A DNA stretch of 64,000 nucleotides from positions 124,001-188,000 of the forward strand of contig NZ_VJZZ01000006.1 in assembly GCF_009659535.1 (NCBI RefSeq), in the 5' to 3' direction. The position numbers were made by a program, and so were the translations under genes. This DNA is from Aggregicoccus sp. 17bor-14. Its GTDB lineage: Bacteria > Myxococcota > Myxococcia > Myxococcales > Myxococcaceae. Shown here in pieces: positions 10,946 to 39,798 of this stretch. How positions within the stretch are numbered: position 1 is the stretch's first letter; every line of letters begins with the position of its first letter. The notes below the pieces were generated by a model. That model searched no databases, was not told the origin of the DNA, and was given only the letters and a program-made list of their open reading frames with translations.

Positions 10946-11020
10946 GCGCAGCGTTGGGGGGCACAGTCCCTCGCCGTCAGCCCATGGCGCCTTGCGCCGC
11001 GCGCTGACGCCGCGTCCGCC

Positions 11021-11434
11021 TCAGGGCGCGGAGCCCCTGCCCTCCAGGTGCGCACGCACGCTCTGCACCGGGTGCGCGACCCCGTAGAGGGAGTCGCCCT
11101 GGTGGCCGCCCCCGAGGTTGACGCCGACGACCTCGCCCTTCGCATTGACCACGGGGGCACCGCTGGTCGCCCGCAGCTCCAGCGTCGGGTCCTCGAAGGT
11201 GTAGGCGAGCGTCGTCCGCTTCGACTCCACCACCCGCGCGCGATGCAGGTGCGTGCCGACGGAGCGGCCGCCGCGCACCTCGGCCACGAGCCACACGTCG
11301 TCGCCGACCTTGGGGTTCTGCGTCGCGAGGGGCAGCACCCGCGATGCCGCGCTCTCCGGAGCGATGAACGCCGCGAGGTCCTTCGAGTTGTCGCCGGGAG
11401 GCGCGCCGTGGGCTGTCGCCGGCAGCACCAGCAT
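11021..11434 (-). pseudogene. Trypsin-like serine protease remnant (C-terminal half)
   Basis: From ATG 11434 the frame gives 137 residues that match only the second half of a chymotrypsin-fold protease. It includes a possible Asp segment (DNSKDLAAFIAP) and the Ser motif LELRATSGAPVVNAKGEVVG, with the nucleophile at S91. No catalytic-His segment precedes it. Upstream, protein-like sequence (TGDDGFAWRP, from about 11517) continues in a different frame that would join near 11440, suggesting a frameshift or decay. A genuine short protein, or a sequencing error, cannot be excluded. Confidence 0.45.
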
Positions 11435-11728
11435 CGGCCCGGCGGCAGGGACTCCGCCTGCGCGTGCGGCCAGTGCAGGCCCTGGGGCCGCCAGGCGAAG
11501 CCGTCGTCGCCGGTGGAGGCGAGGCCCCGCCTGCGACCCGGTAGGGCTCCGGAATCCCGCAAGTGGTGACGGCTGCCTGCCGTGCCGCCCAGTTCCACAC
11601 AGCGGGGTCCGCGCGCGGGAGATTGCATCCCCGCCCGCGGGCAGAGGTGAAACGGTGGACCCAGCGGGCCGACCTCCTCGCGGAGGACGCCGCTCGACAC
11701 GCACGCACTCGCTCAACGGGAGACGACG

Positions 11729-12490
11729 ATGGCCCAGAAGAAGAAGGCGCAGGCGAAGAAGGCTCCGGTCACGAAGCGCGCGGCTGCGACGAGCGCCCGC
11801 GGCGCTGCGGCGAAGGGTGCGGGGGCGAAGCGCGGTGGCACGGCGGCGCGCAGCGCGTCTCGCACGGGTGCGCCTCGCGCGGGCGCTGCTGTGACGGCGC
11901 GCACCGGTGCAGCCGCGAAGCGCGCGGGCGCCCGCAGCGGCCGCGTGGAGAACCTCTCCGACCGGCGCGTGGGCCACACGCCCGAGCCCGCCCCACGCGG
12001 CGGCGGCCGCGTAGAGAACCTGCGCGACACGGCCCGCCGTGCGGCGCCTGCGACTGCCACCACCACCACCACTCGGCGCGGTGCGGGCGTGGAGAACCTC
12101 GCGGACTCCGGCCTGCGCATCCGCGAGACGGCGCCCGCTCGCGAGGACTTCCGCGTGGAGAACCTGTCGCGGACGCAGCGCCCCGCGCGCCCCCACCCGG
12201 AGCGCGAGAGCCGCCGCTCGGGCGTGGAGAACCTCTCGGAAACGCAGACGCCCGCCGACCCGCGCACCGCCGTGGTGACCGTGCCGGACGCGGGCACGGA
12301 GGACCTCACCCGCACCACGCGCCCGGTGCGCGAGCGCAGGACCGCGACGGAGCGCGGCAGCGGCATCGAGAACCTTTCCCGCACGACGACGCCCGCCGCC
12401 GCAGGCCCCGTCACCACCACGGTGCCCGCGGGCGTGGAGAACCTGCAGGAGACGGCGCGCCGGCGCCGCACCGGGCGCAACCCCCGCTAG
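11729..12490 (+). CDS. Basic protein with eight VENL repeats (novel)
   Basis: The 253-residue protein has two parts. Residues 1-70 are rich in Lys, Ala and Arg (MAQKKKAQAKKAPVTKRAAA), like a histone H1 tail. Residues 71-253 carry a short motif, [RG][VIT]E[ND]L followed by S/R/A/T/Q and D/E/R: VENL starts at 73, 95, 121, 143, 166 and 236, with TEDL at 190 and IENL at 213. Spacing is 22-26 residues. Between repeats the sequence is Thr/Pro/Arg-rich and probably disordered. No enzyme or membrane features are seen. It may bind nucleic acid or a partner that reads the repeat, but the function is unknown. A purine-rich site (GGGAGACGACG) precedes the ATG, and a long hairpin follows the stop. Confidence 0.75.
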   Translation: MAQKKKAQAKKAPVTKRAAATSARGAAAKGAGAKRGGTAARSASRTGAPRAGAAVTARTGAAAKRAGARSGRVENLSDRRVGHTPEPAPRGGGRVENLRDTARRAAPATATTTTTRRGAGVENLADSGLRIRETAPAREDFRVENLSRTQRPARPHPERESRRSGVENLSETQTPADPRTAVVTVPDAGTEDLTRTTRPVRERRTATERGSGIENLSRTTTPAAAGPVTTTVPAGVENLQETARRRRTGRNPR

Positions 12491-12837
12491 CCGCATCGGC
12501 GGTGCGAGAGCGCTTCCAGGTCGGCTTCGAGAAGCCCCGAGGCCCCGGAGGCGCTCGCCTCAACCGCCGATGAAGGGGCGCAGGTGGCCCCCCAACCCCG
12601 ATGCTCGCCTCGCCATACCAGCGGCGCCACTGCGGGGAGAACGGCGGGCCTGCGGGCGGCAGGGCAGCCCCCCCGCAGGGCCGCACCGCGGAGGGGTTCA
12701 GGCCGCCTGCCTGCTCGTCCTTCCGCGGGCCCGCTGGCGCTCGTGCCCGAGACGCTCGCAGCCCTCGACGGTCACCCGCGGACCTTCCGGAGGCCGCAGG
12801 GGCGCGGGGTGGGGGAGCCCGGGTGTAGACGGGGCGC
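12491..12837. other. Intergenic region, hairpin then putative hydrolase promoter
   Basis: About 350 bases. The first 80 form a long imperfect hairpin (separate entry). The remainder up to the hydrolase start shows no convincing gene on either strand and presumably contains the hydrolase promoter; no clear promoter boxes were found. Confidence 0.45.
12494..12572 (+). other. Long imperfect hairpin after the VENL gene
   Basis: The outer arms CATCGGCGGT (12494-12503) and ACCGCCGATG (12563-12572) are perfect reverse complements. Inside them GCGAG pairs with CTCGC, CGCTTCC with GGAGGCG (one G-U) and GGCTTC with GAAGCC around a two-base turn. All lie symmetrically within 79 bases and start 3 bases after the stop codon. 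This could end or stabilise the transcript, or be a structured RNA. Confidence 0.5.
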
Positions 12838-13710
12838 ATGGACCGCCGCACGCGCACCTTCTCCTCCCCCGACGGAACCCGGCTCGCGCTCACCGAGCTC
12901 GGCCGCGGCCCTCCGCTGCTGTGCCATCCGGGAGGGCCGGGCCGCGCGTCCGTGTATCTGGAGGACCTCGCGGGCCTCGCGGAGGAGCGGACGCTGCTGC
13001 TGCTGGACCCGCGCGGGACGGGGAGCAGCGAGATGCCGGCGGACCCGTCCACGCTGCGCTTCGACCGGCTCGCGGACGACCTCGAGGCCGCTCGCGCGCA
13101 CCTGGGCCTCGCGCGGATGGACGTGCTCGCGCACTCCGCGGGCGCCGTGGTCGCCGAGGTGTGGGCGGCGCGGCACCCCGATGGCGTAGGCGCGCTGGTG
13201 CTGGTGACGCCGAGCGACCGGCTGCAGGGCGGCCGGCACGCGGACGTCCCTGCCATCCGCGCCTCGCGCGCGGGCGAGCCCTGGTACGCGGACGCCGCAG
13301 CGGCGGAGCGCGCGCTCGCGAGCGCTCCGCCCGAGGCGCAGCAGCCGCTCGTGCGCCGCACGCGCCCCTTCTTCTACGGCCGCTGGGACGCGCGCATCCA
13401 GGCGCACGCAGCCGGGGCGGAGGCGCAGTCCAGCGCCGCCGCGGAGGAGGGCTACGGGCGCGACGCGGGCGGTGTCGACACCGCGGGGCTCGCCGCGCAG
13501 CTGGCGCGCGTGCGGGCGCCGGTGCTCGTGGTGGGCGGGGCGCGCGACGGCATCACCGGCGTCGCGTCCGTGCACGCCGTCGCGCGCTGCTTCCCCTCGG
13601 CTCGCGCCCTCGTCCTCCCCGAGGCCGGCCACTTCCCGTGGATCGACGCGCCGGAGGCCTTCCGCGAGGCGGTGGGCCGCTTCCTGCGGGACGCGGTCGC
13701 CCGCGCCTGA
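12838..13710 (+). CDS. Alpha/beta hydrolase (proline iminopeptidase-like)
   Basis: The 290-residue protein has the alpha/beta-hydrolase order: oxyanion-side CHPGGPG at about 29-35, strand LLLLDPRGTGSS, nucleophile elbow LAHSAGA with S100, an acid region VVGGARDGI and the catalytic His in PEAGHFPW. HPGGPG and DPRGTGSS are typical of proline iminopeptidase-like enzymes. The first Gly of the usual GxSxG is Ala here, which is tolerated in the family. The substrate is unknown. It is convergent with the HD-domain gene at 13768. Confidence 0.85.
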   Translation: MDRRTRTFSSPDGTRLALTELGRGPPLLCHPGGPGRASVYLEDLAGLAEERTLLLLDPRGTGSSEMPADPSTLRFDRLADDLEAARAHLGLARMDVLAHSAGAVVAEVWAARHPDGVGALVLVTPSDRLQGGRHADVPAIRASRAGEPWYADAAAAERALASAPPEAQQPLVRRTRPFFYGRWDARIQAHAAGAEAQSSAAAEEGYGRDAGGVDTAGLAAQLARVRAPVLVVGGARDGITGVASVHAVARCFPSARALVLPEAGHFPWIDAPEAFREAVGRFLRDAVARA

Positions 13711-13767
13711 CCCGGGCCGCGGGGCAGGGAAGCGTCGACTCCGGACTCGCTCACCGCCCAGCGCACC

Positions 13768-14898
13768 TCATGGGGCCTCCGCTGCGGACGCGTCCGCATC
13801 ACTCAGCAGCGGGATGTGCCGCTCCCGCAGCGCCGTGCGCACCGCCGCTTCGCCGCCGCGCGCGTAGGCGGTGTACAGCACCACGCCCGGCACGAGGGCC
13901 TGGACCCGGTGGTGCATCCAGCGCAGGCGGGACCCGGGCAGCGGCGCGCCGGCCTCCGCCTGCGCCAGCTGGTCGAGCAGCGCCTCCACCTGTCCAGCGG
14001 CGGGGTCGGTGAGGACGTAGTCGTGGTCGGACAGGTGGTGGATGACGGCCTCGGCAGGGGCGGGCGCGGCCAGCTCGAAGCCCTGTCCGCCTTTGCGCAG
14101 CAGCCCCGCCTCCACGGGGTCCACGCCGGCGAGGAGGGCGCCTGCGCGCAGGTAGTCCACGACGTGCGCGGCGGAGGGGCCCAGAGGCGCTTCGTGCGCC
14201 GAGGCGAGCACGACGACGAACGCGGCGGGCAGCTCGCGGTGGAGCGCCTCGGCGACGATGAACGCGTGGTGGGACGCGGTGCCGCCCACCCGCGGCTGCG
14301 TCGTCAGGCCTCCGTCGGGCTGCCACTGCAACACCCACGGCTTCATCGCGTCATGGAGGATGGCGGCGGCAGCCACCCAGTCCGAGCGCAGGGTCCCGGG
14401 CGCAAAGCCGTACACCCGCTCGTAGTCCTGCACGAGCGCGAGGCCACTGCGGGTGTTGAAGGCGGTGTGCTCGGCGAGACCGCCCGGGTAGCCATGGTGG
14501 CCGTGCACCGCCTGGCCCGGCGCCGAGAGGAAGGGCTGGGGCGCTGCGGGCGCCGGTGGCAGCGGCGGAAACAGCTGCTCGAGCGTGACCGCGGCATCCA
14601 GCAGGCCCTGCTCCACCAGCTGCGCGCGCACGCGCTCGCGCGCCTCGGGCAGGGCGAGCCGCTCCGTGAAGGTCGGCCGCGGGTTCTCGAGCAGGCCCAC
14701 CGTGGCCTCGCGCAGCGCCTTGTCCCGCAGGCCGCGCGCAGTACGCAGCAGGTCCGCGTAGGCGGTGCGCGCCGTGGGCGAGGTGCGCGCGAGCGCGAGC
14801 GCCCGTGCGTTGCCCGCCTGGGCAAGCGCAGGGGTGGTGGAGAGCAGGCCGGCGCACAGCACGAGCGCACGGGAGAGGGACGATGGCGCTTGCCGCAT
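13768..14898 (-). CDS. Secreted HD-domain (metal-dependent phosphohydrolase-like) protein
   Basis: This 376-residue protein has a cleavable signal peptide (residues 1-26, ending ALAQA). A helical domain follows with histidine-rich motifs of an HD fold: HGHHGYPGGLAEHT, then AAILHDAMKPW (the His-Asp pair), then ASHHAFIVAEAL and VLASAHEAPLG. HD enzymes hydrolyse phosphoesters using bound metal; a secreted version is less usual. The catalytic class is inferred from these motifs only. The neighbouring TetR gene is on the same strand, 96 bases away. Confidence 0.68.
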   Translation of the reverse strand: MRQAPSSLSRALVLCAGLLSTTPALAQAGNARALALARTSPTARTAYADLLRTARGLRDKALREATVGLLENPRPTFTERLALPEARERVRAQLVEQGLLDAAVTLEQLFPPLPPAPAAPQPFLSAPGQAVHGHHGYPGGLAEHTAFNTRSGLALVQDYERVYGFAPGTLRSDWVAAAAILHDAMKPWVLQWQPDGGLTTQPRVGGTASHHAFIVAEALHRELPAAFVVVLASAHEAPLGPSAAHVVDYLRAGALLAGVDPVEAGLLRKGGQGFELAAPAPAEAVIHHLSDHDYVLTDPAAGQVEALLDQLAQAEAGAPLPGSRLRWMHHRVQALVPGVVLYTAYARGGEAAVRTALRERHIPLLSDADASAAEAP

Positions 14899-14994
14899 GG
14901 CGGGGGCTCCGGACGACGCGTGGGGACTCGGGGCCCAGCAGGGCCCGACGCGCCGACATACTCCACCGACGCGCAGGACAACCAGCGGTCCGCC

Positions 14995-15615
14995 TCACCC
15001 GTGCGCTGGCGCGCGCGCGCGTACCGGCGGCGCAAACGCGCGCAGCAGTGCATCCACCAGCGTGCGGGTCACCCTCCGGTCGAGCGGCGCGCCGGTGAAG
15101 AGGAAGCGGTAGAAGAGCGGGCCCTGCAGCGCGTCCAGGGCGAGCTCGAGGTCCAGCCCGCGCCGCAGCTCGCCCCGTCGCACGCCCCGTCGCAGCGCGA
15201 GAAGGAAGCCCGCGCGTCCGGCGGCGAAGAAGCCCTCGCGCACCGTGCGCGCGAGCGGCGCACTGCGGGCCATGCCCGCCACCAGCCCCGACAGCAGCTC
15301 GCCCGTGGCCTCGTCGCGGTACAGCCCGAGCTGCCCGTCCATCAGCCGCAGCAGGTCGTCGCGCAGGCGCCCCGTGTCCGGCACCGGCAGGGCGCTCACC
15401 AGCCGCTCGAGCGCCTCGCAGACGAGCGCCTCGCAGGTCTTCCACCGCCGGTACACGGTGGCCTTGCCCACGCCAGCGCGCCGGGCGACCGCGTCCATGC
15501 GCACCCGGTCGTAGCCCACCTCGCGCACGAGCGCGATCGCCGAGGCCAGGATGGCCTGGTGCGCCTCCTCGCTGCGCGGCCGGCCTGGCCGCCGTTCCTC
15601 TCCGCTCGTGCCCAT
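14995..15615 (-). CDS. TetR-family transcriptional regulator
   Basis: From ATG 15615 this is a 206-residue protein. The N-terminal helix-turn-helix is typical: ILASAIALVREVGYDRVRMD, then ARRAGVGKATVYRRWK. A helical ligand-binding domain follows. The basic GRPRSEEAHQ leader is usual for the family. The open frame continues to 15858, but that part overlaps the P450 coding region and lacks homology-like features. It is divergent from the cytochrome P450 gene with 112 bases between starts, so it probably represses that gene and itself in response to a small molecule. Confidence 0.92.
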   Translation of the reverse strand: MGTSGEERRPGRPRSEEAHQAILASAIALVREVGYDRVRMDAVARRAGVGKATVYRRWKTCEALVCEALERLVSALPVPDTGRLRDDLLRLMDGQLGLYRDEATGELLSGLVAGMARSAPLARTVREGFFAAGRAGFLLALRRGVRRGELRRGLDLELALDALQGPLFYRFLFTGAPLDRRVTRTLVDALLRAFAPPVRARAPAHG

Positions 15616-15727
15616 CTCGCCGGCCAACGGTAGCCGCGGGGATATACGGAACACAACCGTCTCGAAACTCCTTGAGGCCTCGCCCGGGCGTGTGTTCGAT
15701 AGGGGCAAGGCATCCCGGAGGAGCACC
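15616..15727. promoter_or_regulatory. Divergent TetR/P450 promoter region with possible operator
   Basis: This 112-base region holds both promoters. GAACACA at 15649-15655 is the reverse complement of TGTGTTC at 15691-15697, a 7-base inverted repeat separated by 35 bases that could bracket a promoter. The region is locally AT-richer than its surroundings (GATATACGGAACAC). A ribosome site, GGAGGAGCACC, precedes the P450 start. Confidence 0.4.
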
Positions 15728-17152
15728 ATGAGCAACGCGACGAGGGAGGAGCTCCTGGCAGCGCGCGAGCCCGAGGGCCCCGCGCCGGTGGGCGTGTGGA
15801 AGCTATTGCGCGGCCACCGCGAGGACCCCCTGCAGCGCTGGACGCACGTCCGCGACACCTACGGCGACGTGGCGCGCTACCGCTACGGCGTGGGGACGAA
15901 CTACCTCGTCACCCACCCGGACGGGCTCAAGCGCGTGCTGCAGGACAACGCGGGCAACTACACCAAGCGCCACCCCACCTACGCGATGATCCGCCGCCTC
16001 GTGGGCAACGGGCTGCTCACGAGCGAGGGCCCCTACTGGCTGCGCCAGCGGCGGCTCGCCCAGCCGGCCTTCCACCGCGCCCGCATCGCGGCGATGGCGG
16101 AGCGGATGGTGCGCGCGGCCGAGCGCACCCGCGACGCGTGGGAGGCGCGTGCCGCCTCCGGCGCCCCCTTCTCCATGCTGGAGGACATGTCCGCGCTCAC
16201 CCTGCAGGTGGTGGGCGAGGCGCTGTTCGGCACGAGGCTGGCGGCGAAGACGGAGCAGGTGCGCCAGGCGTGGGACACCCTCAACGCCCAGTTCGTCGAG
16301 CGCTACAACCGCCGGCGCTTCCTGCCCCCGGTGCTGCCCACCCGCTCGGACCGCGCGTTCCGCGCCGCGCACCGCGCGTTCTTCTCCATCGTCGACGAGC
16401 TGGTGCAGGCCAAGCGGCGCGAGGGCGGGGCGGGGGAGGACCTGCTGTCCATGCTGGTGTCCGCGCGCGACGCCGACACGGGCGAGGCGATGAGCGACGC
16501 GCAGCTGCGCGACGAGGTGGTGACGCTGCTGCTCGCAGGACACGAGACCACGGCGCTCGCGCTGGGGTGGGCGTGGGCGCTGCTCGACCAGCACCCGCGC
16601 GTGGCCGAGCGGCTGCGCGACGAGCTCGCGCGCGAGCTGCAGGGCCGCTCACCCACCTTCGCGGACCTGCCCCGGCTCGCCCACACCCGGCACGTGGTGG
16701 ACGAGGTGCTGCGCCTCTATCCGCCCGCCTACATCTTCTTCCGGCGCGTGGAGGCGGACGACGTGGTGTGCGGCGCGCGCGTGCGCAAGGGCGGCACCGT
16801 CGTCGTCGCCCCCATGGCGCTGCACCGCCACCCCGCCTACTGGGAGGACCCGGACGCCTTCCGCCCCGAGCGCTGGGCGGACGAGGCCGCCGTGCAGCGC
16901 CGCCCCCGCTTCGCCTACCTGCCCTTCAGCGCCGGGCCCCGCCAGTGCATCGGCAACACCTTCGCCCTCACCGAGGCGGTGCTGCTGCTCGCCACGCTCG
17001 CTCCGCGCTTCCGCCCCCGGCTCGTCGACGGGTACACGCTCCGCCCCGAGTACCTCACCACGCTGCGGCCCTCCGGCGGACTGCCCATGCGCCTCGAGCG
17101 CGCGGCGGTCGGGGCGGGCCCGCGCCCGGAAGAGTCGCGCGTCGTCGGGTGA
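15728..17152 (+). CDS. Cytochrome P450 monooxygenase
   Basis: This 474-residue soluble bacterial P450 has all signature elements: the I-helix oxygen-binding LLLAGHETTALAL, the K-helix EVLRLYPP (ExxR) and the heme loop FSAGPRQCIGN with axial Cys407. The PERW meander (RPERWAD) is intact. It lacks a membrane anchor. Residue patterns (SEGPYWLRQRRLAQPAFH) recall CYP families that oxidise fatty acids or terpenoids, but the substrate is unknown. No ferredoxin or reductase gene is adjacent. The start has a strong ribosome site. Control by the divergent TetR is likely. Confidence 0.95.
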   Translation: MSNATREELLAAREPEGPAPVGVWKLLRGHREDPLQRWTHVRDTYGDVARYRYGVGTNYLVTHPDGLKRVLQDNAGNYTKRHPTYAMIRRLVGNGLLTSEGPYWLRQRRLAQPAFHRARIAAMAERMVRAAERTRDAWEARAASGAPFSMLEDMSALTLQVVGEALFGTRLAAKTEQVRQAWDTLNAQFVERYNRRRFLPPVLPTRSDRAFRAAHRAFFSIVDELVQAKRREGGAGEDLLSMLVSARDADTGEAMSDAQLRDEVVTLLLAGHETTALALGWAWALLDQHPRVAERLRDELARELQGRSPTFADLPRLAHTRHVVDEVLRLYPPAYIFFRRVEADDVVCGARVRKGGTVVVAPMALHRHPAYWEDPDAFRPERWADEAAVQRRPRFAYLPFSAGPRQCIGNTFALTEAVLLLATLAPRFRPRLVDGYTLRPEYLTTLRPSGGLPMRLERAAVGAGPRPEESRVVG

Positions 17153-17485
17153 GTGCCCGGGTGGGCGCGGAGAACGCGTGCGCCGACCCCACGGGGGCGC
17201 TGAGCAGGGAGAGCAAGCGGGCACGAGGCGCCCCACCGCAGGTCCGCTGGGACTCGGGCCTGCGGGCCCGCCACCGCTCCCGCGTGCCCGGCCGGGCACG
17301 TCGCCGCCCTGGCAAGTGGTCGTAATTGCTCTGGGCTTCGCGCAGCGCAGGACGCGCGGCGAGGCAGCGGGCTGCGCGTCCGGCCGTGGGCGCGGGACTT
17401 GCTGCGGGGTACGCGCGTGACGCTCTCGCCGCTGCCCTCCCGCAGCGGCTCCCCTGCCGCCGCGGCCCCGCTCCCCCTTCGAGTC
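17153..17485. other. Intergenic region between P450 and chemoreceptor
   Basis: About 330 bases. The frame of the chemoreceptor is open back to 17399, but the family start is the ATG at 17486. The region contains an 18-base perfect palindrome (separate entry) and a short AT-rich patch (TGGTCGTAATTGC, about 17316-17329) that may belong to the chemoreceptor promoter. No gene is seen. Confidence 0.45.
17283..17300. promoter_or_regulatory. 18-base perfect palindrome
   Basis: CGTGCCCGGCCGGGCACG reads identically on both strands. It lies 130 bases after the P450 stop and 185 bases before the chemoreceptor start. It could be a dimeric regulator site or, as RNA, a GTGCCC/GGGCAC hairpin ending the P450 transcript. 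Confidence 0.35.
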
Positions 17486-19486
17486 ATGACGCTCAGCCAC
17501 CGCCTCTCGACCAAGCTTCTCGTCACCCTCTGCAGCGTCATCGCGCTGACGCTGGGCCTCGTGGTCCTCGTCGTCAGCCGGCAGTCCTCACGCGTCGCGG
17601 AGGAGGAGGCGACGCAGGCCGCGACCGGGCTGGCGAGGGACGCCGCGGCGCAGGTGCACGCGCGGTTCGAGCGCTCGGTGCTCACCTCCCGCACGATCGC
17701 GCAGTCCCTCGCGGCCCTGAAGCTCGCGGGCAACACGGACCGGGAGCTCGGCTCCGCGATGGTGCGCCGCACCGTCGAGGAGACGCCGGAGATCCTCGGC
17801 CTCTGGTTCATCTGGGAGCCGAACGCCTTCGACGGCGCCGACGCGAAGTTCGCGAACAAGGGCTTCGTCGATGCCACCGGCCGCCACATGGCCTGGTGGA
17901 ACCGGGGCAGCGGGAACATCCAGCAGGAGGTGGCGATGGACTACGAGAAGCCCGGTCCCGGCGACTGCTACCTGCTGCCGCGCGCCACGAAGAAGGAGAC
18001 CCTCCTCGAGCCCTACTTCTACACGACCGCGGGCAAGACGGAGCTCATCACCGGCATCTCGGTGCCCATCCTGATGGACGGCAAGTTCATGGGCGTCGTC
18101 GGCGAGGACATGCCCCTGCGGCAGACGCAGGCGCTCGTCGCGACCATCAAGCCCTTCGAGAAGGGCTTCGCGACGCTCACCTCCAGTCAGGGCAACCTCA
18201 TCGCGCACCCCAACGCGGAGCTGCTGGGCAAGCCGCTCGGGGACTCGGCCGCGGACGCGCTCGTGAAGCGCGCGCTCGCCAGCCGCGAGACCCAGGTCGG
18301 CCGCGTGCACTCCGACGTGCTCGGCGCCGAGGCCATCGCGGTCGTGGTGCCCTTCGTCGTCGGCCACTCGGAGACGCCCTGGGCCCTCACCGTGTTCGCG
18401 CCGCTCGAGACCGTGCTCGCCCCGGCGCACCAGCTGCGCACCTTCACGCTCGCCCTGGGGGTGCTGGCGCTGCTCGCGCTCGCCCTCATGGTCCTCGTCG
18501 TCGTCCGCCGCGTCACCCGCCCGCTCGAGCGCATCTCGGAGGTGGCCACGCAGATTGCCGCGGGCAACCTGACCGAGCAGGTCGAGCACCGCTCCTCCGA
18601 CGAGATCGGCGCGCTCGCGGAGGCGTTCCGCACCATGAGCGAGCGGCTCGCGCAGGTCATCGGCGAGGTGCGCAACGGCGCCAGCGCCCTCTCCTCGGCG
18701 TCGGGTCAGCTGTCGCAGACCTCCCAGGCGCTCTCCTCGGGCACCAGCGAGCAGGCGGCCTCCTTCGAGGAGGTGACGGCGAGCCTCGAGCAGATGCGAA
18801 GCTCCATCGACCAGAACGCCACCCACAGCGCGCGCGTGGATACGCTCGCCCTCAAGGGTGCGAACGATGCGGCGGAGAGCGGCCGCGCGGTGGCCGAGCT
18901 GGTGGAGGCGATGAAGCAGATCGCGGGCCGCATCACCATCATCGAGGACATCGCGTACCAGACGAACCTGCTCGCGCTCAACGCCGCCATCGAGGCGGCG
19001 CGCGCAGGCGAGCACGGCCGCGGCTTCGCGGTGGTGGCCTCGGAGGTGCGCAAGCTCGCGGAGGGCAGCCAGCGGGCCGCGCGCGACATCGTCGAGCTCG
19101 CCTCCCAGCGCGTCGCCCAGGCGGAGCGCACCGGCGGGATGCTCGAGGAGCTGGTGCCCAGCATCCAGCAGACGAGCGCGCTGGTGAAGGAGGTGGCGGC
19201 CGCCAGCACCGAGCAGTCGCAGAGCGTGGGCCAGATGAACCGGGCCGTGCTGGGGCTCAACTCCGTCACCCAGCAGAACGCGTCGGCCGCCGAGGAGCTG
19301 GCGGCCACGGCGGAGGAGATGGCGAGCCACGCGCAGAGCCTGCTGCAGCTCATGTCCTTCTTCCGCACCGCGGAGGACGCCGGCAGCGCGCGGCCGGGCG
19401 GGCCCGTCGTGCACCTGCCCGTGCGCGCGCAGCGCCCTGCGGTGGCACCCACCCCGGCCCCTTCGCCCAGGCTCGAGAGCCGCTAG
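17486..19486 (+). CDS. Methyl-accepting chemotaxis protein with periplasmic Cache-type sensor
   Basis: This 666-residue receptor has: a basic start and first membrane helix (about 8-31), a large periplasmic sensor (about 32-315) with dCache-like features ([43 protein letters not shown]), a second helix (about 317-340), HAMP, then the cytoplasmic signalling coiled coil. The hairpin tip contains [20 protein letters not shown], essentially invariant in the family. It signals to CheA/CheW; no che genes are nearby. The ATG at 17486 is chosen because the upstream frame would bury the signal anchor. The C-terminal tail is Pro/Ala-rich without a CheR-binding pentapeptide. Confidence 0.93.
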
Positions 19487-19672
19487 GCAGGGCGGCGACA
19501 GGGGCCGCCGGGCGCGCCTGCGCGCGCTCCGGGACCTCGTGGCCATGCGCCTGGCGGGCTGAGCCCGGCAGCACCGGGCAGGCCGGTGAGCGGTTGCTCC
19601 TGGCGCCAACAGAGCTCCTCGGTGTTAGGACGAACGCCTGGGGCGTAGACCCCACCCTGGGGAGGACGTGAG

Positions 19673-20182
19673 ATGAGCACCGAGAAGGCGATTCTGGCGG
19701 GTGGCTGCTTCTGGGGCGTGGAGGAGCTGTTGCGGCGCATGGACGGAGTGATCTCCACGCGCGTGGGCTACAGCGGCGGCGACGTGCCGAACGCGACCTA
19801 CCGCAACCACGGCACGCACGCCGAGGCGGTCGAGATCGTCTTCGACCCCGCGCGCCTGAGCTTCCGCACGTTGCTGGAGTTCTTCTTCCAGATCCACGAC
19901 CCGTCCACGCGCAACCGGCAGGGCAACGACATCGGCACGTCCTACCGCTCGGCCATCTTCTACACCTCGCCCGAGCAGCAGCGCATCGCGCTGGACACCA
20001 TTGCGGACGTCGATGCCTCGGGCCTGTGGCCCGGCAAGGTGGTCACCGAGGTTGCTCCCGCGGGTGCGTTCTGGGAGGCCGAGCCCGAACACCAGGACTA
20101 CCTGCAGCGCTACCCCGACGGCTACACCTGCCACTTCGTGCGTCCGGGCTGGAAGCTGCCGCGCCGCCAGGCCGCGAGCTGA
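19673..20182 (+). CDS. msrA: Peptide-methionine (S)-S-oxide reductase MsrA
   Basis: This 169-residue enzyme reduces the S-epimer of methionine sulfoxide in proteins. The catalytic GGCFWG (Cys12) is at the N-terminus, followed by [20 protein letters not shown] and the later [17 protein letters not shown] and YTCH segments of the family. Length is typical. A ribosome site, GGGGAGGACGTGAG, is directly upstream. MsrB is not fused or adjacent. It is convergent with the phospholipase-D-like gene. Confidence 0.96.
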
Positions 20183-20229
20183 CCCCGGCCTCGGCCGGTG
20201 CTCGCGCCCGCCGCGCGCGTGGCCACTCC

Positions 20230-20246
20230 GGCCCCGCGCGGGGGCC
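20230..20246. terminator. Possible hairpin between convergent msrA and phospholipase-D-like genes
   Basis: GGCCCC (20230-20235) and GGGGCC (20241-20246) pair around a five-base loop. Position between two convergent stops suits a shared transcript end, but the stem is short and no T-tract is present. Confidence 0.28.
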
Positions 20247-20275
20247 CGCGGCCGTGCGGCGCGCGGAGGGAGCCG

Positions 20276-21544
20276 CTACTTGCCCTCGGCGCCGGCGATG
20301 TCCGGGGGCGTGTAGACCGCCTTCGGGTCCACGGGGGAGGCGTAGGTGCTGTTCCACAGGTCGAGGAAGAAGGCGTCCAGCTGCCGCGCGAACGCGGCGC
20401 CCTCGACCACGAGCCCCACGTTGCGGCTGCCGTGGAAGTAGCTGCGCTCCCAGTTGTTCGTCCCCACCCAGCCCTTCTCGCCGTCCACCACCAGGTACTT
20501 GGAGTGCACGACGCGGGCGAAGGGGATGTGGCCACTCGAGTGCTGCGGGATGGTGACCAGCTTCACGGTGAGGCCCCGCTCGGGCGCGTGCAGCGCCTGC
20601 AGCCCCTCGATGGTGCCCTTGCGCTTGCCCCAGTCCGCGAGCAGCAGCTCCACCTGCACGCCGCGCAGGGCGGCGCGCTGCAGCGCGGACTCGAGCACCT
20701 CCCAGTTCCCCTCGCGCGAGCGCGCACGGTAGGTGAGCAGCTGCACGCGCACCGTGCGCCGGGCGCCGTCGATGAGGCGCACCAGCTGGGGCAGGTCCCA
20801 CGCGCTGCTCGCGGGCACCTGGCCCTCGGGGCTCGCCACGGGCAGCACCCGCACCCGCTCCCCGCCGAAGCGCGCCTCCGTCCACGCGGCCGCGGGGCCC
20901 GAGGCGGACGGCAGGGGCTCACCGCCCGCCTGGGCCCAGTCGTAGGCGAACACGTCGGAGAGCGGGCGCACCGCCGCGGGACCGCTCAGGCGCAGCCCCA
21001 GCTCCTGGATGTGCTCGAGCGAGCGCCAGTCGAAGTTCTGGCTGCCGAGGTAGCCCTCGCGCCCATCGACGACGAAGTACTTCGCGTGCAGCACGCCGCC
21101 CTGCAGCTTCTCCCGGTCCCAGCGGCGCAGGCTCACGTTCGGCTGCGCCTGCAGCCGCGCCACCGTCTCCGGGTAGGTCCGGGCGAACTTCTCCTCGGTG
21201 AGGATGCGCACCCGCACGCCCCGCGCCGCCGCGGCCTCCAGCGCCCGCACGCTCGGCTCGAGCGCGCTGCCCTCCCGGTTGGAGTTGGACAGGTAGAACT
21301 CCGCCACGTCGAGCGTCCGGGTGGCCCGCGCGAACAGCTCCGGCCACACGTCCTTCGCATCGCGCAGCGCCGCGTGGTTCAGCGGCGTCTCCACCGGCGC
21401 GCTCTCCACCAGCTCCAGCTCCAGCTCCAGCTCCGGCGGTGCGGCCTGCGGCCCCGCGGCGGGCGCGCGCACGCCGGGTGCGGCGCAGGCGAGCGCCAGG
21501 AGGAGTGGGACGAGGCGGGCAGGCGAGTGTCGGACGGGTTGCAT
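20276..21544 (-). CDS. Phospholipase D-like lipoprotein (two HKD motifs)
   Basis: From ATG 21544 this is a 422-residue protein: a signal with lipobox LALAC (Cys20), an acidic repeat ELELELELVE, then two PLD half-domains. HKD motif 1 is HAKYFVVDGREGYLGS (H153, K155, D160) and motif 2 is HSKYLVVDGEKGWVGT (H347, K349, D354). The two together form one active site that cuts or transfers phosphodiester bonds, as in phospholipase D or cardiolipin synthase. Here it would be lipid-anchored in the envelope, possibly acting on lipids or as a nuclease. Confidence 0.88.
   Translation of the reverse strand: MQPVRHSPARLVPLLLALACAAPGVRAPAAGPQAAPPELELELELVESAPVETPLNHAALRDAKDVWPELFARATRTLDVAEFYLSNSNREGSALEPSVRALEAAAARGVRVRILTEEKFARTYPETVARLQAQPNVSLRRWDREKLQGGVLHAKYFVVDGREGYLGSQNFDWRSLEHIQELGLRLSGPAAVRPLSDVFAYDWAQAGGEPLPSASGPAAAWTEARFGGERVRVLPVASPEGQVPASSAWDLPQLVRLIDGARRTVRVQLLTYRARSREGNWEVLESALQRAALRGVQVELLLADWGKRKGTIEGLQALHAPERGLTVKLVTIPQHSSGHIPFARVVHSKYLVVDGEKGWVGTNNWERSYFHGSRNVGLVVEGAAFARQLDAFFLDLWNSTYASPVDPKAVYTPPDIAGAEGK
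21411..21434 (-). repeat. Hexanucleotide microsatellite (four AGCTCC units)
   Basis: Four perfect copies of AGCTCC encode alternating Glu-Leu in the linker after the lipobox of the phospholipase-D-like protein. Unit gain or loss would keep the frame and only change linker length. Confidence 0.8.
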
Positions 21545-21766
21545 GGTGCGCCTGTCCTGACAGCGACCGGATGCGTCGCGCAAGTGGCGGCCGTTGCGCA
21601 CCTCGCCCGCGCTTCGAGGCGAAAGCACCTCGAGGGGGAACCTGGCCCGTTCCGTCCCCGGCCAGCCAGGCGGCAGCGCCGCCCCCCACCCCGCGGCGCA
21701 GTTCCCAGCGCCGTGCCCGCGGGTGACACCGCGCCGGACCCGGACGTCGAATGGGGAGGACGGGCA

Positions 21767-22765
21767 ATGGACGAAGGCACCTCGCGCGGACCCGAGGCGC
21801 TCGCGCGCAGCACGCTGCTGCGCCAGCGGGCGGGCGCGGCCCTGGTGGATGCGTTCTGCACGGGGCTCACCCGCGGCGGCCGGCTGCTGCCGCAGTCCCG
21901 CAGCGAGCTGCACGCCGTCGAGGTGCTGCGCGACGTCGCGTACCTGCCCGATGGCGGCAGCGCCCACCGGCTGGACCTCTACCGCCCCCGCGGGCCGGGC
22001 GGCCCGCGGCCCGTGGTGCTCTACATCCACGGGGGCGCCTTCCGGGCGCTCTCCAAGGAGACGCACTGGGTGTTCGGCGTGGTGTTCGCGCGCCAGGGCT
22101 TCGTCGCGCTGAACCTCAACTACCGGCTGGCCCCCGCGCACCCCTTCCCCGCGGCACTCGAGGACGTGGCGGCGGCGTACTGCTGGGCGGTGCAGCACGC
22201 GGCGCACTACGGGGGGGACCCCGCGCGCGTCGTAGTGGCCGGCGAGTCGGCGGGGGCGAACCTCGCGCTGGGGCTGGCGCTGGCCACCTGCTACCGCCGT
22301 CCGGAGCCGTGGGCGCGCGCCGTCTTCGACACCGGCGTGGTGCCGCGCGCGGTGCTGCCCGCCTGCGGGGTGCTGCAGGTGAGCGACCCGGAGCGCTACT
22401 GGCGCACGCAGCCGCGCAGCTTCTTCGTGCGCGACCGGCTCTCCGAGGTGGGGCAGACCTACCTGCGCGGGGCCCGCGTCCCGGAGGAGGGTGGGCTGGA
22501 GCTCGCGGACCCGCTGCTGGTGCTCGAGCGGGCCGGGGCGCCCGCGCGCCCGCTGCCCGCCTTCTTCGTCGCCTGCGGCACCGCGGACGTGCTGCTCGAG
22601 GACTCCCGGCGGCTCGCGCGGGCGCTGCAGCAGCTCGGCGCACGCTGCGAGGCGCGCGACTACGCGGGCGAGCCGCACGCCTTCCTCGCCTTCGTCCACA
22701 CGCGCGCCGGCGCGCGGCGGCACTGGGAGGATGCGTTTCGCTTCCTCGCCCAGCAGCTGCACTGA
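21767..22765 (+). CDS. Alpha/beta hydrolase, hormone-sensitive-lipase-like esterase
   Basis: This 332-residue protein has the signature oxyanion motif YIHGGAF (HGG at 88-90) and the nucleophile elbow VVAGESAGANL with S161. A later acid segment, ACGTADVLLED, and the histidine in GEPHAFLAF complete a probable catalytic triad. The family hydrolyses short- or medium-chain carboxylic esters. No signal peptide is seen. ATG 21767 has a ribosome site (GGGGAGGACGGGC). It is divergent from the phospholipase-D-like gene and ends 16 bases before the convergent metallophosphoesterase stop. Confidence 0.9.
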   Translation: MDEGTSRGPEALARSTLLRQRAGAALVDAFCTGLTRGGRLLPQSRSELHAVEVLRDVAYLPDGGSAHRLDLYRPRGPGGPRPVVLYIHGGAFRALSKETHWVFGVVFARQGFVALNLNYRLAPAHPFPAALEDVAAAYCWAVQHAAHYGGDPARVVVAGESAGANLALGLALATCYRRPEPWARAVFDTGVVPRAVLPACGVLQVSDPERYWRTQPRSFFVRDRLSEVGQTYLRGARVPEEGGLELADPLLVLERAGAPARPLPAFFVACGTADVLLEDSRRLARALQQLGARCEARDYAGEPHAFLAFVHTRAGARRHWEDAFRFLAQQLH

Positions 22766-22781
22766 AGCGCGCCCCGGGGCC

Positions 22782-23645
22782 TCACGCGCGCCGGGCCGCC
22801 TCCTGCCGCCAGGCGCGCAGCGTCTCGCCCACCGCGGTGCGCAGCTCCTGCGCCGAGGAGAGCGGGGCCAGCGGCGCCTCGGTGAAGGGCAGCCAGCGCG
22901 CCCCGGGGCCCGCCGCCGCGCACGGCCCGGGCGCGAAGAGGGGCACCCGGCCCAGCTCGAGGGTCGCCCCCGCGTTGCTCACGTGCAGGGGGCGGCCGGT
23001 GGAGTGGCCAGGAGCCCGCAGCGTCCGCGCGCTCGGGCGGTGGCGGTGGCCGTGCAGCACCCGGTCCGCCCGGCCCAGCAGCCGCTGCAGCAGCGCCGCG
23101 CCGAGCGGCAGCTCCTCCAGCCTGCCTGTCCCCAGGCGGCAGGCGAGGCGCTCGCCGAGCGACTCCGTGGGCAGGGGCAGCGGGTGGTGGTGCATCAGCA
23201 CCCAGACGCCGTCGCCGGGCCGGGCCGCGTCCACCGCGCGCTCCACCGCGTCGAGCTGCTCGGGCGTGAGCAGCCCCTGGCACTGCCAGTAGCTGTGGTT
23301 CTGCGGGCCGGTGGTGTCCACCCGCACCAGGTGCAGGCCGCGCGCGCGCACCGCGTCCACGCGCCGCCCGCCCATGAAGCCCTCGCCCACCGCGGGGCCC
23401 ACGCGGTCGTGGTTGCCCGGCACCAGCGTCACCCGCCCTGCCTCGAGCAGCGGGGCGAAGAGCCGCTCGAAGAGCGCGAGCTCCTCCGGGCGCCCCCGGT
23501 GCGTCACGTCCCCGGTGACGACCACGTGCGCCACCCGCGCGGCGAGCAGCGCGGCCACCAGCTGGCGCGCGGTGTCCACGCGGGACGCGTCGGCGCCGAG
23601 GTGCAGGTCCGAGACGTGCGCGACGAGGCCCGCCCTCACCGGCAT
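22782..23645 (-). CDS. Calcineurin-like metallophosphoesterase
   Basis: The 287-residue protein carries the full dinuclear-metal motif set: SDLHLG (D13, H15), TGDVTHRG (D46), PGNHDR (N78, H79), MHHHPLPL and GHRHRP. This arrangement is typical of class III cyclic-nucleotide phosphodiesterase/CpdA-like enzymes, but the substrate cannot be told from sequence. The C-terminal helix region is family-variable. ATG 23645 gives a normal start immediately before the first metal motif. Confidence 0.92.
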   Translation of the reverse strand: MPVRAGLVAHVSDLHLGADASRVDTARQLVAALLAARVAHVVVTGDVTHRGRPEELALFERLFAPLLEAGRVTLVPGNHDRVGPAVGEGFMGGRRVDAVRARGLHLVRVDTTGPQNHSYWQCQGLLTPEQLDAVERAVDAARPGDGVWVLMHHHPLPLPTESLGERLACRLGTGRLEELPLGAALLQRLLGRADRVLHGHRHRPSARTLRAPGHSTGRPLHVSNAGATLELGRVPLFAPGPCAAAGPGARWLPFTEAPLAPLSSAQELRTAVGETLRAWRQEAARRA

Positions 23646-23818
23646 GCCCTCCGCATTCCTGGCTGCACCGGCGTGCAGGGCGCGCCGCACGCTGCACAGG
23701 AGTGGAGCCGCCCGCGCATGGCCTTGCCTCCGCTGAAGCGGAAAGAAACCCGGGGCCGGAACGGTGGGGCGCGACCCTCGGCGTGTCCACCCCGGCCTGC
23801 GGGACGGCCCGGGGGCGC

Positions 23819-24703
23819 TCAGGGCTTCTGCGCCTTCACCAGCACGTAGTCGATGTAGCCGCGGCGGTAGGCCTCGTAGGCGAGCACGTCGATGGCGAGC
23901 CCGCCGGCGGCCGCCCCCAGCCCGCGCCGCGCGCGCATCTCGCGCAGGTTGCGCAGGGTGCGCTGCTCCCGGAAGTAGCCCGGGTAGGTGAGCGCCCCCA
24001 CCCGCTGCACCTGGACCGCGGTGAAGCCGGTGCGCTGCAGCTTGTGCACGTAGTCCTCCTGCGTGTCGCAGTTCTCCCAGGGGATGTGCCAGCCGCGGCA
24101 GATGAGCTTCAGCACGAGCCGGTCCGCGCGGCTGCCCTGGCGCAGCTCGCGCTGGGCGCAGTAGTCGGCGAGCAGCAGCGTGCCGCCCGGCTCCAGCACC
24201 CGGAAGGCCTCCTGCAGGAAGCGCTCGCGGGTGTCGAAGTGCACGGGTCCCTCCACCCCCAGCACGTGGGTGAAGCAGGCGGGCGCGAAGGGGAGCGCCG
24301 TCGCGCTGCCGTGGTGCAGGTGCACCTGCCCCTCGAGCCCGGCCCGCGCGACCCTGCGGCGCCCCGCCTCGACGTGGCCCCACGTCACGTCCACCGCGTG
24401 GATGACGCGGGGGCGGAACTCGCGCGCGAGCAGCACGTCCTGCGCGCCCGTGCCGCACGCCACGTCGGCCAGCACGCTGTCCTCGTCGAGCGCTCCCCAG
24501 TGCGCCAGCCGGCGCACCAGGTTCTCCGCCGCGGCCTCGTAGTGGCGGACGCCGTCCTCCCAGAGGCCGAAGTTCAGGTAGCCCCCGTGGTAGTCGCCGT
24601 AGCGCTCCACCCCGTGCGAGTAGAAGTGCTCGACCGCGCGCTCGTGCGTGCGCTGCGGCCAGCGCTGGCGGTCCGGGCCCGCGTCGTCCGGGATGACGTC
24701 CAT
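23819..24703 (-). CDS. Class I SAM methyltransferase (UbiE/sterol- or terpenoid-type)
   Basis: This 294-residue protein has motif I VLADVACGTGAQDVLLA, acidic VIHAVDVTWG, and the post-motif THVLGVEGPVHFDTRERFL followed by FRVLEPGGTLLLADY. The layout resembles small-molecule C-methyltransferases. The N-terminal YGDYHGGYLNFGLWEDG segment is common to that group. The substrate is unknown. ATG 24703 has a good ribosome site (GCAGGAGGAACACGAC). It is divergent from the dehydrogenase operon at 24935. Confidence 0.88.
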   Translation of the reverse strand: MDVIPDDAGPDRQRWPQRTHERAVEHFYSHGVERYGDYHGGYLNFGLWEDGVRHYEAAAENLVRRLAHWGALDEDSVLADVACGTGAQDVLLAREFRPRVIHAVDVTWGHVEAGRRRVARAGLEGQVHLHHGSATALPFAPACFTHVLGVEGPVHFDTRERFLQEAFRVLEPGGTLLLADYCAQRELRQGSRADRLVLKLICRGWHIPWENCDTQEDYVHKLQRTGFTAVQVQRVGALTYPGYFREQRTLRNLREMRARRGLGAAAGGLAIDVLAYEAYRRGYIDYVLVKAQKP

Positions 24704-24934
24704 GTCGTGTTCCTCCTGCGGCACCCTGCGCGGCGCCCTCCGGGCGGGCAGGCGCCCGGGCGGGAAATCTGCGCACGGGGGGCACGGCCGGAAGTCCCCG
24801 AGGTCCTCCCGTCCACAGGTACAGGACACCCGGGGCCATGGCGGCGCGAGCAGCCGGCCGTGCGCCGGGCGGCCGGCGGCGGCCCTGCACGTTGCGCCGA
24901 TGATGCGCGCGGGCCACGGCCCTATCGTCGGCCC

Positions 24935-25585
24935 ATGCTCCCGCTGACCGAGCTACCGCCCGCGGCTGCCGCGGGCATCCCCCGGCGGCGCTTCCTGCAG
25001 GGAGGTCTGCTGGGCGGCGCGCTGCTCGCGCTGGGCGGCGGCGCGCTCGCGCTGGGCGGCGGCGCGCTCGCGCTGCGCTCCACGCGGCTCGTCCCCGTGC
25101 CGCCCGAGGGACTGCGCGTGCTGACCCCCGGGCAGTACGCGGTCGTGGACGCGTTCGTGCGGCGCATGGCGCCGCCGCGGCCGGGCTTCCCCCCGCACGA
25201 GGTGGTGCGCACCGCACTCAACGCCGACCGCATCCTCGCCGCCACGGAAGCCGGAGCGCAGGAGGACTTCCGGCGGCTGCTCGACCTCTTCGAGAGCGCG
25301 CTGGCCGGGCTGCTCCTCACCGGGCGCACCACGCCCTTCACCCGCCTGTCCCCCGAGGCGCAGGACGCCGTCATCGCGGACTGGCGCGACAGCGGCCTCG
25401 CGCTGCGGCGCACCGGCTTCCAGGCGCTGCGCGCGCTCGCCGCGGGCGCCTACTACGGCTCGCCCCGGGTGTGGCCCGCGGTGGGCTACCCCGGGCCGCC
25501 CGCCGCGCTGCACGACCCGGCCGCGCCCGTGTGGAAGGGCGGGGGCGCGCCCCGGCCGGGAGGTGGGCTCGGAGGTGGGCCGTGA
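24935..25585 (+). CDS. Gluconate 2-dehydrogenase subunit 3-like small subunit (Tat signal)
   Basis: The 216-residue protein begins with a Tat signal (IPRRRFLQGG) and a long hydrophobic stretch containing a perfect repeat of ALGGGAL. A helical domain follows (LTPGQYAVVDAFVRRM, RLSPEAQDAVIADW, AYYGSPRVWPAVGYPGPP) that matches the small subunit of membrane-linked GMC dehydrogenases. In known systems this subunit escorts the folded flavoprotein through Tat. The stop overlaps the start of the next gene (GTGA), so translation is coupled. The glycine-rich tail is unusual. Confidence 0.82.
   Translation: MLPLTELPPAAAAGIPRRRFLQGGLLGGALLALGGGALALGGGALALRSTRLVPVPPEGLRVLTPGQYAVVDAFVRRMAPPRPGFPPHEVVRTALNADRILAATEAGAQEDFRRLLDLFESALAGLLLTGRTTPFTRLSPEAQDAVIADWRDSGLALRRTGFQALRALAAGAYYGSPRVWPAVGYPGPPAALHDPAAPVWKGGGAPRPGGGLGGGP
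25028..25069 (+). repeat. Two perfect tandem 21-base repeats in the Tat signal
   Basis: The unit GCGCTGGGCGGCGGCGCGCT plus C occurs twice in a row and encodes seven residues each (ALGGGAL). Copy change would lengthen or shorten the hydrophobic core of the Tat signal without changing the frame. Confidence 0.85.
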
Positions 25586-27144
25586 GCTGCGCGGAGGCGG
25601 GCCGCATCCACACCGGCGACGAGGTGGCGCAGGACCTCGAGCGCACCTGCGACGTGTGCGTGGTGGGCTCGGGCGCCGGCGGCGCGGTGCTCGCCCACGC
25701 GCTGGTGGAGCGCGGGCTGTGCGTGGTGATGCTCGAGGAGGGCGGCTACCACACGCGGCGCGAGTTCGACATGCGCGAGGACCACGCCTTCCCGCGGCTG
25801 TACCAGGACCTGGGCAACCGCGCGACGGACGACCTGTCCCTCACGATGCTGCAGGGGCGCAGCGTGGGCGGAGGCACCACCGTCAACTGGTGCGTGTGCT
25901 ACCGCACGCCGCCCAAGGTGCTCGCGCTGTGGCGCGACGTGCACGGGGCGGAGGGCCTGTCCGAGGAGGCGCTGGCGCCGCACTGGGACTGGCTCGAGCA
26001 GCGGCTGCACATCGCCGAGTGGCCCATCGCCGCCGCCAACCGCAACAACCGCCTCCTGTGGGACGGCCTGGGCGCGCTGGGCTACGAGCGCCACAGCCTC
26101 AAGCGCAACGTGCAGCGGTGCGTGAACAGCGGGTACTGCGGCATGGGCTGCCCGGTGGACGCGAAGCAGGGCATGCTGGTGACGCTCATCCCGGAGGCGG
26201 TGGAGCGCGGGCTGACGGTGTTCGCCAACGCGCGGGTGCTGCGGCTGGAGACGCGGGGGCGGCGCGTGGAGGCGGTGCACGCGCAGCTGCTGGATCCGGA
26301 GACGGACAGGCCCACCGGCCGCCGCCTCACCGTGCGCGCGCGGGTGACGGCGCTGTGCGCGGGGGCCATCAACAGCCCCGCGCTGCTGCTGCGCTCGGGG
26401 CTGGACGGGGGCGGGCGCGTGGGCCGGCGCACCTTCCTGCACCCGGGCATCGTGTCCGCCGCGCTCTTCGAGGAGCCGGTGAACGCCTGGTACGGCGCGC
26501 CCATGAGCGTGGGCAGCCGCCAGTTCGCCGAGCGCGGCGACGACCGGCTGGGCTACCTGATGGAGACGCCCCCGGTGCACCCCATGCTCGGCGCGATCGC
26601 GCTGGGCGGCTTCGGGCTCGCGCACCAGGAGGCGATGGAGCAGCTCGCCCACGTGCAGGCCGCGCTCGTCATCACCCGCGACGGCGTGGTGGAGGGGGAC
26701 GAGGGGGGCACGGTGGCCCTGCGCGAGGGCGGCCGCCGGCTCTCCATCCAGTACCCGCTGCGCGCGCACCACTGGGAGGCGCTGCGCCACGCGCAGGTGG
26801 AGCTCGCGCGGGTGCAGCTCGCCGCGGGCGCGCGCGAGGTGCGCTCGCTGCACGCGCGGCCCGTGGTGGTGCGCCGGGCGGAGGACCTGCCGCTGCTCGA
26901 GCGCGCGCCGTGGGAGGCGCTGCGGGTCAAGGTCTTCAGCGCCCACCAGATGGGCGGCTGCGCCATGGGCGGCGACCCGGCGCGCAGCGTCGTGGACTCC
27001 CGGCTGCGCTACCACGGCCTGGACAACCTCTTCGTCGCGGACGGCAGCGTCTTCCCCACCAGCGTGGGCGTGAACCCGCAGCAGAGCATTTTCGGGCTCG
27101 CGCGCTGGGGCGCCCAGCACGTCGCGGCCGCGGTGGGCGCGTAG
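25582..27144 (+). CDS. GMC-family FAD-dependent oxidoreductase
   Basis: Starting at GTG 25582 (overlapping the upstream stop by GTGA) gives 520 residues. The FAD-binding VVGSGAGGAVLAHAL lies near residue 26. Later motifs are SVGGGTTVNWCVCYRTP, CPVDAKQGM, CAGAINSPALLLRSG and the catalytic-side VFSAHQMGGCAMG with HGLDNLFVADGSVFP, all typical of GMC alcohol/sugar dehydrogenases. With the Tat small subunit it likely forms a periplasmic dehydrogenase. The third, c-type cytochrome subunit of gluconate dehydrogenases is not adjacent. Confidence 0.92.
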   Translation: MSCAEAGRIHTGDEVAQDLERTCDVCVVGSGAGGAVLAHALVERGLCVVMLEEGGYHTRREFDMREDHAFPRLYQDLGNRATDDLSLTMLQGRSVGGGTTVNWCVCYRTPPKVLALWRDVHGAEGLSEEALAPHWDWLEQRLHIAEWPIAAANRNNRLLWDGLGALGYERHSLKRNVQRCVNSGYCGMGCPVDAKQGMLVTLIPEAVERGLTVFANARVLRLETRGRRVEAVHAQLLDPETDRPTGRRLTVRARVTALCAGAINSPALLLRSGLDGGGRVGRRTFLHPGIVSAALFEEPVNAWYGAPMSVGSRQFAERGDDRLGYLMETPPVHPMLGAIALGGFGLAHQEAMEQLAHVQAALVITRDGVVEGDEGGTVALREGGRRLSIQYPLRAHHWEALRHAQVELARVQLAAGAREVRSLHARPVVVRRAEDLPLLERAPWEALRVKVFSAHQMGGCAMGGDPARSVVDSRLRYHGLDNLFVADGSVFPTSVGVNPQQSIFGLARWGAQHVAAAVGA

Positions 27145-27176
27145 CGCTCGGCGCGGGGCCCGGGGCTGCGCTTTTT
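27143..27176 (+). terminator. Candidate intrinsic terminator after the GMC gene
   Basis: AGCGC (27143-27147) can pair with GCGCT (27168-27172), enclosing a G/C-rich loop with further self-complementary GGGCCC. A run of five T (27172-27176) follows, which is rare in this GC-rich DNA. It starts at the GMC stop codon. Confidence 0.42.
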
Positions 27177-27273
27177 CCGGAAAGGGCTGTTTGTTCGCGT
27201 TTCGCCACCCGTGCGCTAAAGCCGGGGACTCACGGCGGCGCGGACTCTCCGCCGCCTGCTCACGAGGGAGTGG

Positions 27274-27978: not shown

Positions 27979-28143
27979 CCTCTGAGAGGAGGCGGGGGCC
28001 GCACCTTGGCCTGGACGCGTCCCAGGCCCGTTCGCTCCATGCTTTCTCGCTGCTCACAGTCGCGGGGCCGCCGCATTGACGGCTCCACTCCCGGCGAATG
28101 GAATCGCAGCGGGGCCTTTGGCTTCCCCCTCAGGAGGCGTCCC

Positions 28144-29325: not shown

Positions 29326-29456
29326 GCGCGCTCGGCGCACCCGGAAACACAGGGGCCTGCCGCGGCCTGGAATTTACCCCCCTCGAAGCGGTTCGCTCCA
29401 GATCCATGCCCGCGCACGGTGCTCGGCATGCGAAGAGACCGTGAGGCGGGTGGCCG

Positions 29457-31517: not shown

Positions 31518-31554
31518 GCTCCGCGGCCTGCCTGCGTGCGCACCCGCGGCGCTG

Positions 31555-32871: not shown

Positions 32872-33036
32872 GGCGGGCCTCCACTGCGTCCCATAGCGGC
32901 GAGGGCCCGGCGCTGCGGCGCCGGCAGGCCGGGAGCGCGCGCGCCCGCTCGGGGGGACAGGGGCCGCCGCTCGCCCGTGCGGCTGGACGGGGCCCGGCGT
33001 GCAGCCGCGAGCCTGGCAGGACGCGCCTGGACGCGG

Positions 33037-39723: not shown

Positions 39724-39750
39724 GGCCTTTGCACGTCGTCGTGCTGTGAG

Positions 39751-39785: not shown

Positions 39786-39798
39786 TCGTTCTGGGGGC

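Follow-up and report, generated by a model that had tools for sequence, protein, structure and literature searches.

A basic protein with eight evenly spaced VENL motifs, a possible docking strand, in Aggregicoccus sp. 17bor-14

What might a bacterial protein be for that repeats a short acidic-hydrophobic motif eight times in a strongly basic chain? This question is raised by an open reading frame in a stretch of 64,000 nucleotides from Aggregicoccus sp. 17bor-14 (Myxococcaceae; contig NZ_VJZZ01000006.1, positions 124,001 to 188,000), hereafter called the window. In the original prediction, the protein was described as a disordered basic chain with a histone-like start and without a recognizable family, and the motifs were suggested to be docking sites for a partner or for a sorting enzyme.

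The VENL frame and its motif array

In a genome of 74% GC, several reading frames stay open by default, as they do at this locus, and the VENL frame was therefore tested for coding. With the codon usage of 23 other genes of the window as reference, its synonymous-codon score is +0.16 per codon, at the lower end of the range of the native genes shown (0.15-0.35), whereas the open antisense frame (11713-12480, minus strand) scores -0.03 and the remaining four frames -0.35 to -0.46 per codon. A composition-dependent coding score is 58.9 for the VENL frame vs. 2.2 for the antisense frame. Thus, the frame very probably codes for a protein, as indicated by a codon choice better than in the other five frames and by a Shine-Dalgarno-like GGGAG. 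Neither a sigma-70-type promoter nor an intrinsic terminator was matched in the segment 11400-12900, which carries little weight at such a GC content. The gene consists of the following features:

11707..11728, plus strand: leader (CAACGGGAGACGACGATG) with the Shine-Dalgarno-like GGGAG ~7 nt 5' of the ATG
11729..12490, plus strand: VENL-array gene, ATG to TAG, 253 amino acids, net charge about +28, coding frame supported
11729..11944, plus strand: acid-free basic N-terminal segment, residues 1-72, a candidate anchor to a polyanion (DNA, RNA or polyphosphate), supported by composition and by the internal DNA repeats D5/D6
11945..11956, plus strand: motif 1, VENL, residue 73
12011..12022, plus strand: motif 2, VENL, residue 95
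12089..12100, plus strand: motif 3, VENL, residue 121
12155..12166, plus strand: motif 4, VENL, residue 143
12224..12235, plus strand: motif 5, VENL, residue 166
12296..12307, plus strand: motif 6, TEDL, residue 190, the most divergent of the eight
12365..12376, plus strand: motif 7, IENL, residue 213
12434..12445, plus strand: motif 8, VENL, residue 236, where the single predicted helix (237-248) begins

All eight copies of [VIT]E[ND]L are located exactly where they had been predicted, i.e., at residues 73, 95, 121, 143, 166, 190, 213 and 236, and each of them is directly preceded by R or G. When the protein was shuffled 20,000 times, the motif occurred 0.008 times on average and never more than twice. 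The almost even spacing was confirmed as well: the distances are 22, 26, 22, 23, 24, 23 and 23 residues, and 200,000 random placements included none that was equally even. Column statistics over the eight units revealed V/I/T at position 0, E at +1, N/D at +2 and L at +3 (each p <= 2e-5), with weaker constraint outside this core at -1 (R/G), +5 (charged in all eight units) and +6 (T/S in seven), resulting in the extended motif [GR]-[VIT]-E-[ND]-L-x-[DER]-[TS]. The linkers, of ~16 residues, are rich in Arg, Thr, Pro and Ala and would be flexible in the model proposed below.

The charges are divided between the two parts of the protein. Residues 1-72 comprise nine Lys and ten Arg (19 Lys/Arg) without a single Asp or Glu; in the array (residues 73-253), there are 33 Arg, seven Asp and 17 Glu but no Lys. 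Hence, all nine lysines are in the N-terminus and all 24 acidic residues in the array. The Lys/Ala-rich N-terminus is thus real, and the term histone-like is appropriate for its acid-free, basic composition but not as a family assignment, since models of histone H1-like proteins did not match. A single-sequence AlphaFold2 prediction gave a mean pLDDT of 49.6, a pTM of 0.13 and a single C-terminal helix (residues 237-248); as this model was built without an alignment, it is weak evidence of disorder by itself. It agrees, however, with the composition: with one aromatic residue in 253 amino acids and no hydrophobic stretch anywhere, the protein fits disorder and a cytoplasmic location. Presumably, therefore, the chain is also disordered in vivo, as envisaged in the original prediction. 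A sortase substrate would contain a signal peptide and a C-terminal sorting signal with a hydrophobic stretch. As read from the sequence, there is no signal peptide, hydrophobic stretch or sorting-signal architecture, which leaves the proposed role as a sorting-enzyme substrate without support.

Origin of the units and constraint on the motif

At units 4, 5, 7 and 8, DNA blocks of 34 nt, with spacings of 69, 141 and 69 nt, share 71-79% identity with the reference copy, so that the units can be traced to one ancestral repeat. This repeat is not fresh, since Tandem Repeats Finder no longer detects an array of the VENL period. Between the units, linker positions match in 19% of the cases, where 11% would be expected from composition, whereas 29 of the 32 core residues (91%) have been kept. 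As neutral decay would wear down both equally, this difference points to selection on the motif. The Leu codon of the motifs is CTC, CTG or CTT, and its variable third base and invariant first two bases fit constraint at the protein level. It offers the only informative wobble position, since the codons for Val, Glu and Asn are nearly fixed by genome-wide bias (GTG in 74%, GAG in 97% and AAC in 98% of the cases, respectively). These data fit a scenario in which protein-level selection holds VENL while the linkers drift freely, as judged from eight paralogous repeats inside one gene, which is a small sample, an orthologue for comparison being absent from the collections searched.

Relatives and genomic place

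The original prediction that the protein belongs to no recognizable family was supported by all libraries and genome samples tried. No Pfam or NCBIfam family matches it at E values up to 1, and PHROGs and PADLOC gave no meaningful family match; a hit to PHROG 8887 ("toxin", E 0.3) was composition noise. The same holds for the matches among PDB sequences, including those to designed helical repeats (E 0.16), and ARVENLSDST, present once in a benzoate dioxygenase reductase (1krh), is an isolated coincidence. The protein found no match in 60 related genomes or in phages, plasmids and viral contigs, including IMG/VR, and it found only itself in its own genome. Also a peptide-pattern scan of genome contigs retrieved no other VENL protein. 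A literature search on the motif yielded nothing relevant.

A search with the repeat as a profile, as suggested together with the original prediction, recovered the eight units in the own genome with E values of 4e-5 to 9e-9, and the next best match had an E value of 0.76; neither a second VENL protein nor a fused partner was found there. Among 145 genomes of the order, the profile detected no array, and the single match (E 0.004, SRAEDLSRSG) was considered a chance match, as it is one copy and its frame contains no other motif; 195 genomes of the phylum contained none. At the DNA level, a strict pattern of paired motifs matched the VENL gene only. With a loose version, 12 of 97 relatives (4 with the reversed control) showed single pairs, each of them isolated, but never two neighboring pairs as in the VENL gene. 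With a pattern of three motifs, applied to genome and viral contigs, no basic VENL-like array was among the matches listed; the in-frame arrays among them belonged to leucine-rich repeats or phage repeats or were unrelated tandem arrays. Thus, within the collections searched, there is no homologue, as one half of the refutation named with the original prediction would require, and the protein is apparently lineage-specific, i.e., missing from all other genera sampled.

The gene is located in a stretch between two genes that lie close together in six of the seven relatives compared:

10946..46920, no strand: lineage-specific stretch of ~36 kb from the epimerase gene to the topoisomerase III-RecQ fusion gene, containing the VENL gene

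A transporter gene (8409-9722) and the epimerase gene (9755-10945) are also found side by side in seven relatives. In six of these seven, the next conserved gene after the epimerase gene is that for topoisomerase III-RecQ, at a distance of 0.5 to 4.4 kb, whereas in the window this gene (46921-51402, plus strand) is located ~36 kb further on. The corresponding gap in the relatives contains no match to the VENL protein. The stretch, which encodes, among others, the VENL protein, a trypsin-like fragment, an alpha/beta hydrolase, a TetR regulator and a P450, represents either an insertion or a rearrangement; the GC content is unremarkable, and the window contains no tRNA. The neighbors of the VENL gene, i.e., the trypsin-like fragment and the alpha/beta hydrolase, point to no pathway.

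Two genes in this region deserve a comment of their own. The trypsin-like frame (11021-11434, minus strand) matches Trypsin_2 over its C-terminal two thirds only (profile positions 51-144), and the N-terminal part, which is expected to include the catalytic His, is therefore absent from it; it appears to be either a fragment or a frame-disrupted gene. At the other end of the stretch, 46921-51402 (plus strand) is one frame of 1493 amino acids, in which residues 3-647 correspond to DNA topoisomerase III (NF005829, above the cut-off) and residues 765-1489 to a helicase of the RecQ type that includes zinc-binding and HRDC domains. Since a single open frame matches both halves also in six relatives, this is a natural fusion in this family.

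A possible docking role and its alternatives

How could such a protein function? Tentatively, and with somewhat more doubt than confidence, we propose that it is a soluble, disordered, strongly basic and anchored strand for the multivalent docking of a putative partner. The acid-free, Lys/Arg/Ala-rich residues 1-72 would hold the strand on a polyanion, which is most likely the chromosome or, alternatively, RNA or polyphosphate. The 181 residues from 73 to 253 would display eight copies of [GR][VIT]E[ND]Lx[DER][TS] on Arg/Thr/Pro linkers of ~16 residues, and a partner whose binding pocket is small might be gathered by avidity through these eight similar, weak sites. Of the two options in the original prediction, docking is preferable, given that the core of the motif was kept while the linkers decayed, with the partner itself remaining putative. 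The case is weakened by the fact that wobble information comes from Leu alone and that selection is deduced solely from a few paralogous units in one gene, and neither a second VENL protein, a fused partner nor the neighboring genes in this genome lend it further support.

Several known systems offer analogies. KGG-repeat stress proteins (PF10685) are disordered hydrophilic proteins of bacteria in which a short motif recurs every ~20-25 residues. The VENL protein resembles them in motif spacing and in the nature of the chain, but it has no KGG motif and no Pfam match. It shares a Lys/Ala-rich, acid-free basic segment with histone H1-like HC2 proteins, but their models (PF07382; NF038052, NF038053) do not match it above the curated cut-off or even at E 1. 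AlgP of Pseudomonas aeruginosa is a histone H1-like DNA-binding protein thought to tether polyphosphate granules to the chromosome (PMC9239181). Like the VENL protein, it combines a basic low-complexity segment with short repeats (PMC9239181), but these are KPAA repeats and its C-terminus is Lys-rich, whereas the VENL protein has a Lys-rich N-terminus and acidic-hydrophobic repeats at 23-residue spacing; no sequence relation between the two was found. The carboxysome scaffold CsoS2 is a disordered protein in which repeated motifs drive carboxysome assembly (PMC11365436, PMC10484944). The VENL protein likewise contains several copies of a short conserved motif, which in CsoS2 bind partners by multivalency, in a chain whose disorder is deduced solely from its composition and from a single-sequence model. 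However, the two differ in their motifs, partner genes and genome context; carboxysome genes are absent beside the VENL gene, and Pfam, NCBIfam and PDB sequences revealed no homologous relation to CsoS2 or to any other known scaffold. By analogy, the VENL protein would resemble AlgP and CsoS2 in mode of action only, as a disordered motif-array protein outside all families searched.

Alternatively, the protein could be a generic histone H1-like condenser of the nucleoid or of RNA, acting through its basic charge, with the VENL units as charge-breaking spacers rather than docking sites. The net charge of +28, the Lys/Ala tails found elsewhere in the genome (see below) and the related logic of the KPAA repeats in AlgP (PMC9239181) are in line with this option. 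Still, it appears unlikely, since charge alone would not require a specific hydrophobic-acidic-polar-Leu core to be kept for 91%, the array has all the acidic residues and no Lys, and no H1-like model matches the protein. We consider it just as unlikely that the gene is a young orphan that has little function or none, i.e., a degenerate minisatellite of ~69 bp that is open by chance in a stop-poor genome of 74% GC. Its location in a stretch missing from the relatives' syntenic site, the failure to find a homologue in the collections searched and the other open frames would be explained, but not the native-like codon choice in the VENL frame only, the Shine-Dalgarno-like site, the age of the repeat or the retention of the core in the midst of decayed linkers. 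Myxobacteria are rich in eukaryote-like Ser/Thr kinases, and the Ser/Thr at +4 and +6 might be kinase targets in a phospho-regulated scaffold, on which the docked partner would be a kinase or a phosphothreonine-reading (FHA-type) protein. T/S is found at +6 in seven and at +4 in five of the eight units, as compared to 20% in the region, but this conservation (p 0.03 at +4 and 0.02 at +6, per column and uncorrected) is far weaker than that of VENL and may merely mirror the shared ancestry of the units, which makes this option improbable. The least likely of the four, and very improbable, is a feature at the DNA level, i.e., an array of 12-bp protein-binding sites around GTGGAGAACCT, or a minus-strand gene (11713-12480), since, in spite of the open antisense frame and the shared wobble positions, the antisense codon score is below zero, most motif substitutions are conservative in sense (V to I, N to D), those in antisense being more radical, and the wobble base of Leu is free to vary.

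In its strongest form, the docking reading would imply a linear-motif docking system not described before, i.e., a lineage-specific strand, anchored to the chromosome or to RNA, of which the eight VENL sites cluster one host protein as a new motif-domain pair; this is rather doubtful. Few linear-motif scaffolds are known in bacteria, and they were mostly discovered via known organelles. The VENL orphan is a ready bait with eight natural copies, and an inactive control, with VENL replaced by alanines, is at hand, which makes a search for the partner testable. If the docking reading is true, such scaffolds emerge within single bacterial lineages. As the gene seems confined to one lineage and the partner is putative, the reach of the finding would be limited.

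Basic tails are not restricted to the VENL protein. A second protein of the window (45442-46131, plus strand) also has a Lys/Ala-rich, histone-like N-terminus (MAAKKKRSAPAAKK...), which is fused to a globular-looking C-terminal part, and shows weak HC2 matches, mainly over the tail. Elsewhere in the genome, there is a Lys/Ala-rich protein (L004), and a peroxiredoxin, BCP-like by reading (L005; C2:385171-388264), carries a long AAKRPAAKKGAAKK C-terminal tail, showing that enzymes in the same genome carry appended basic tails.
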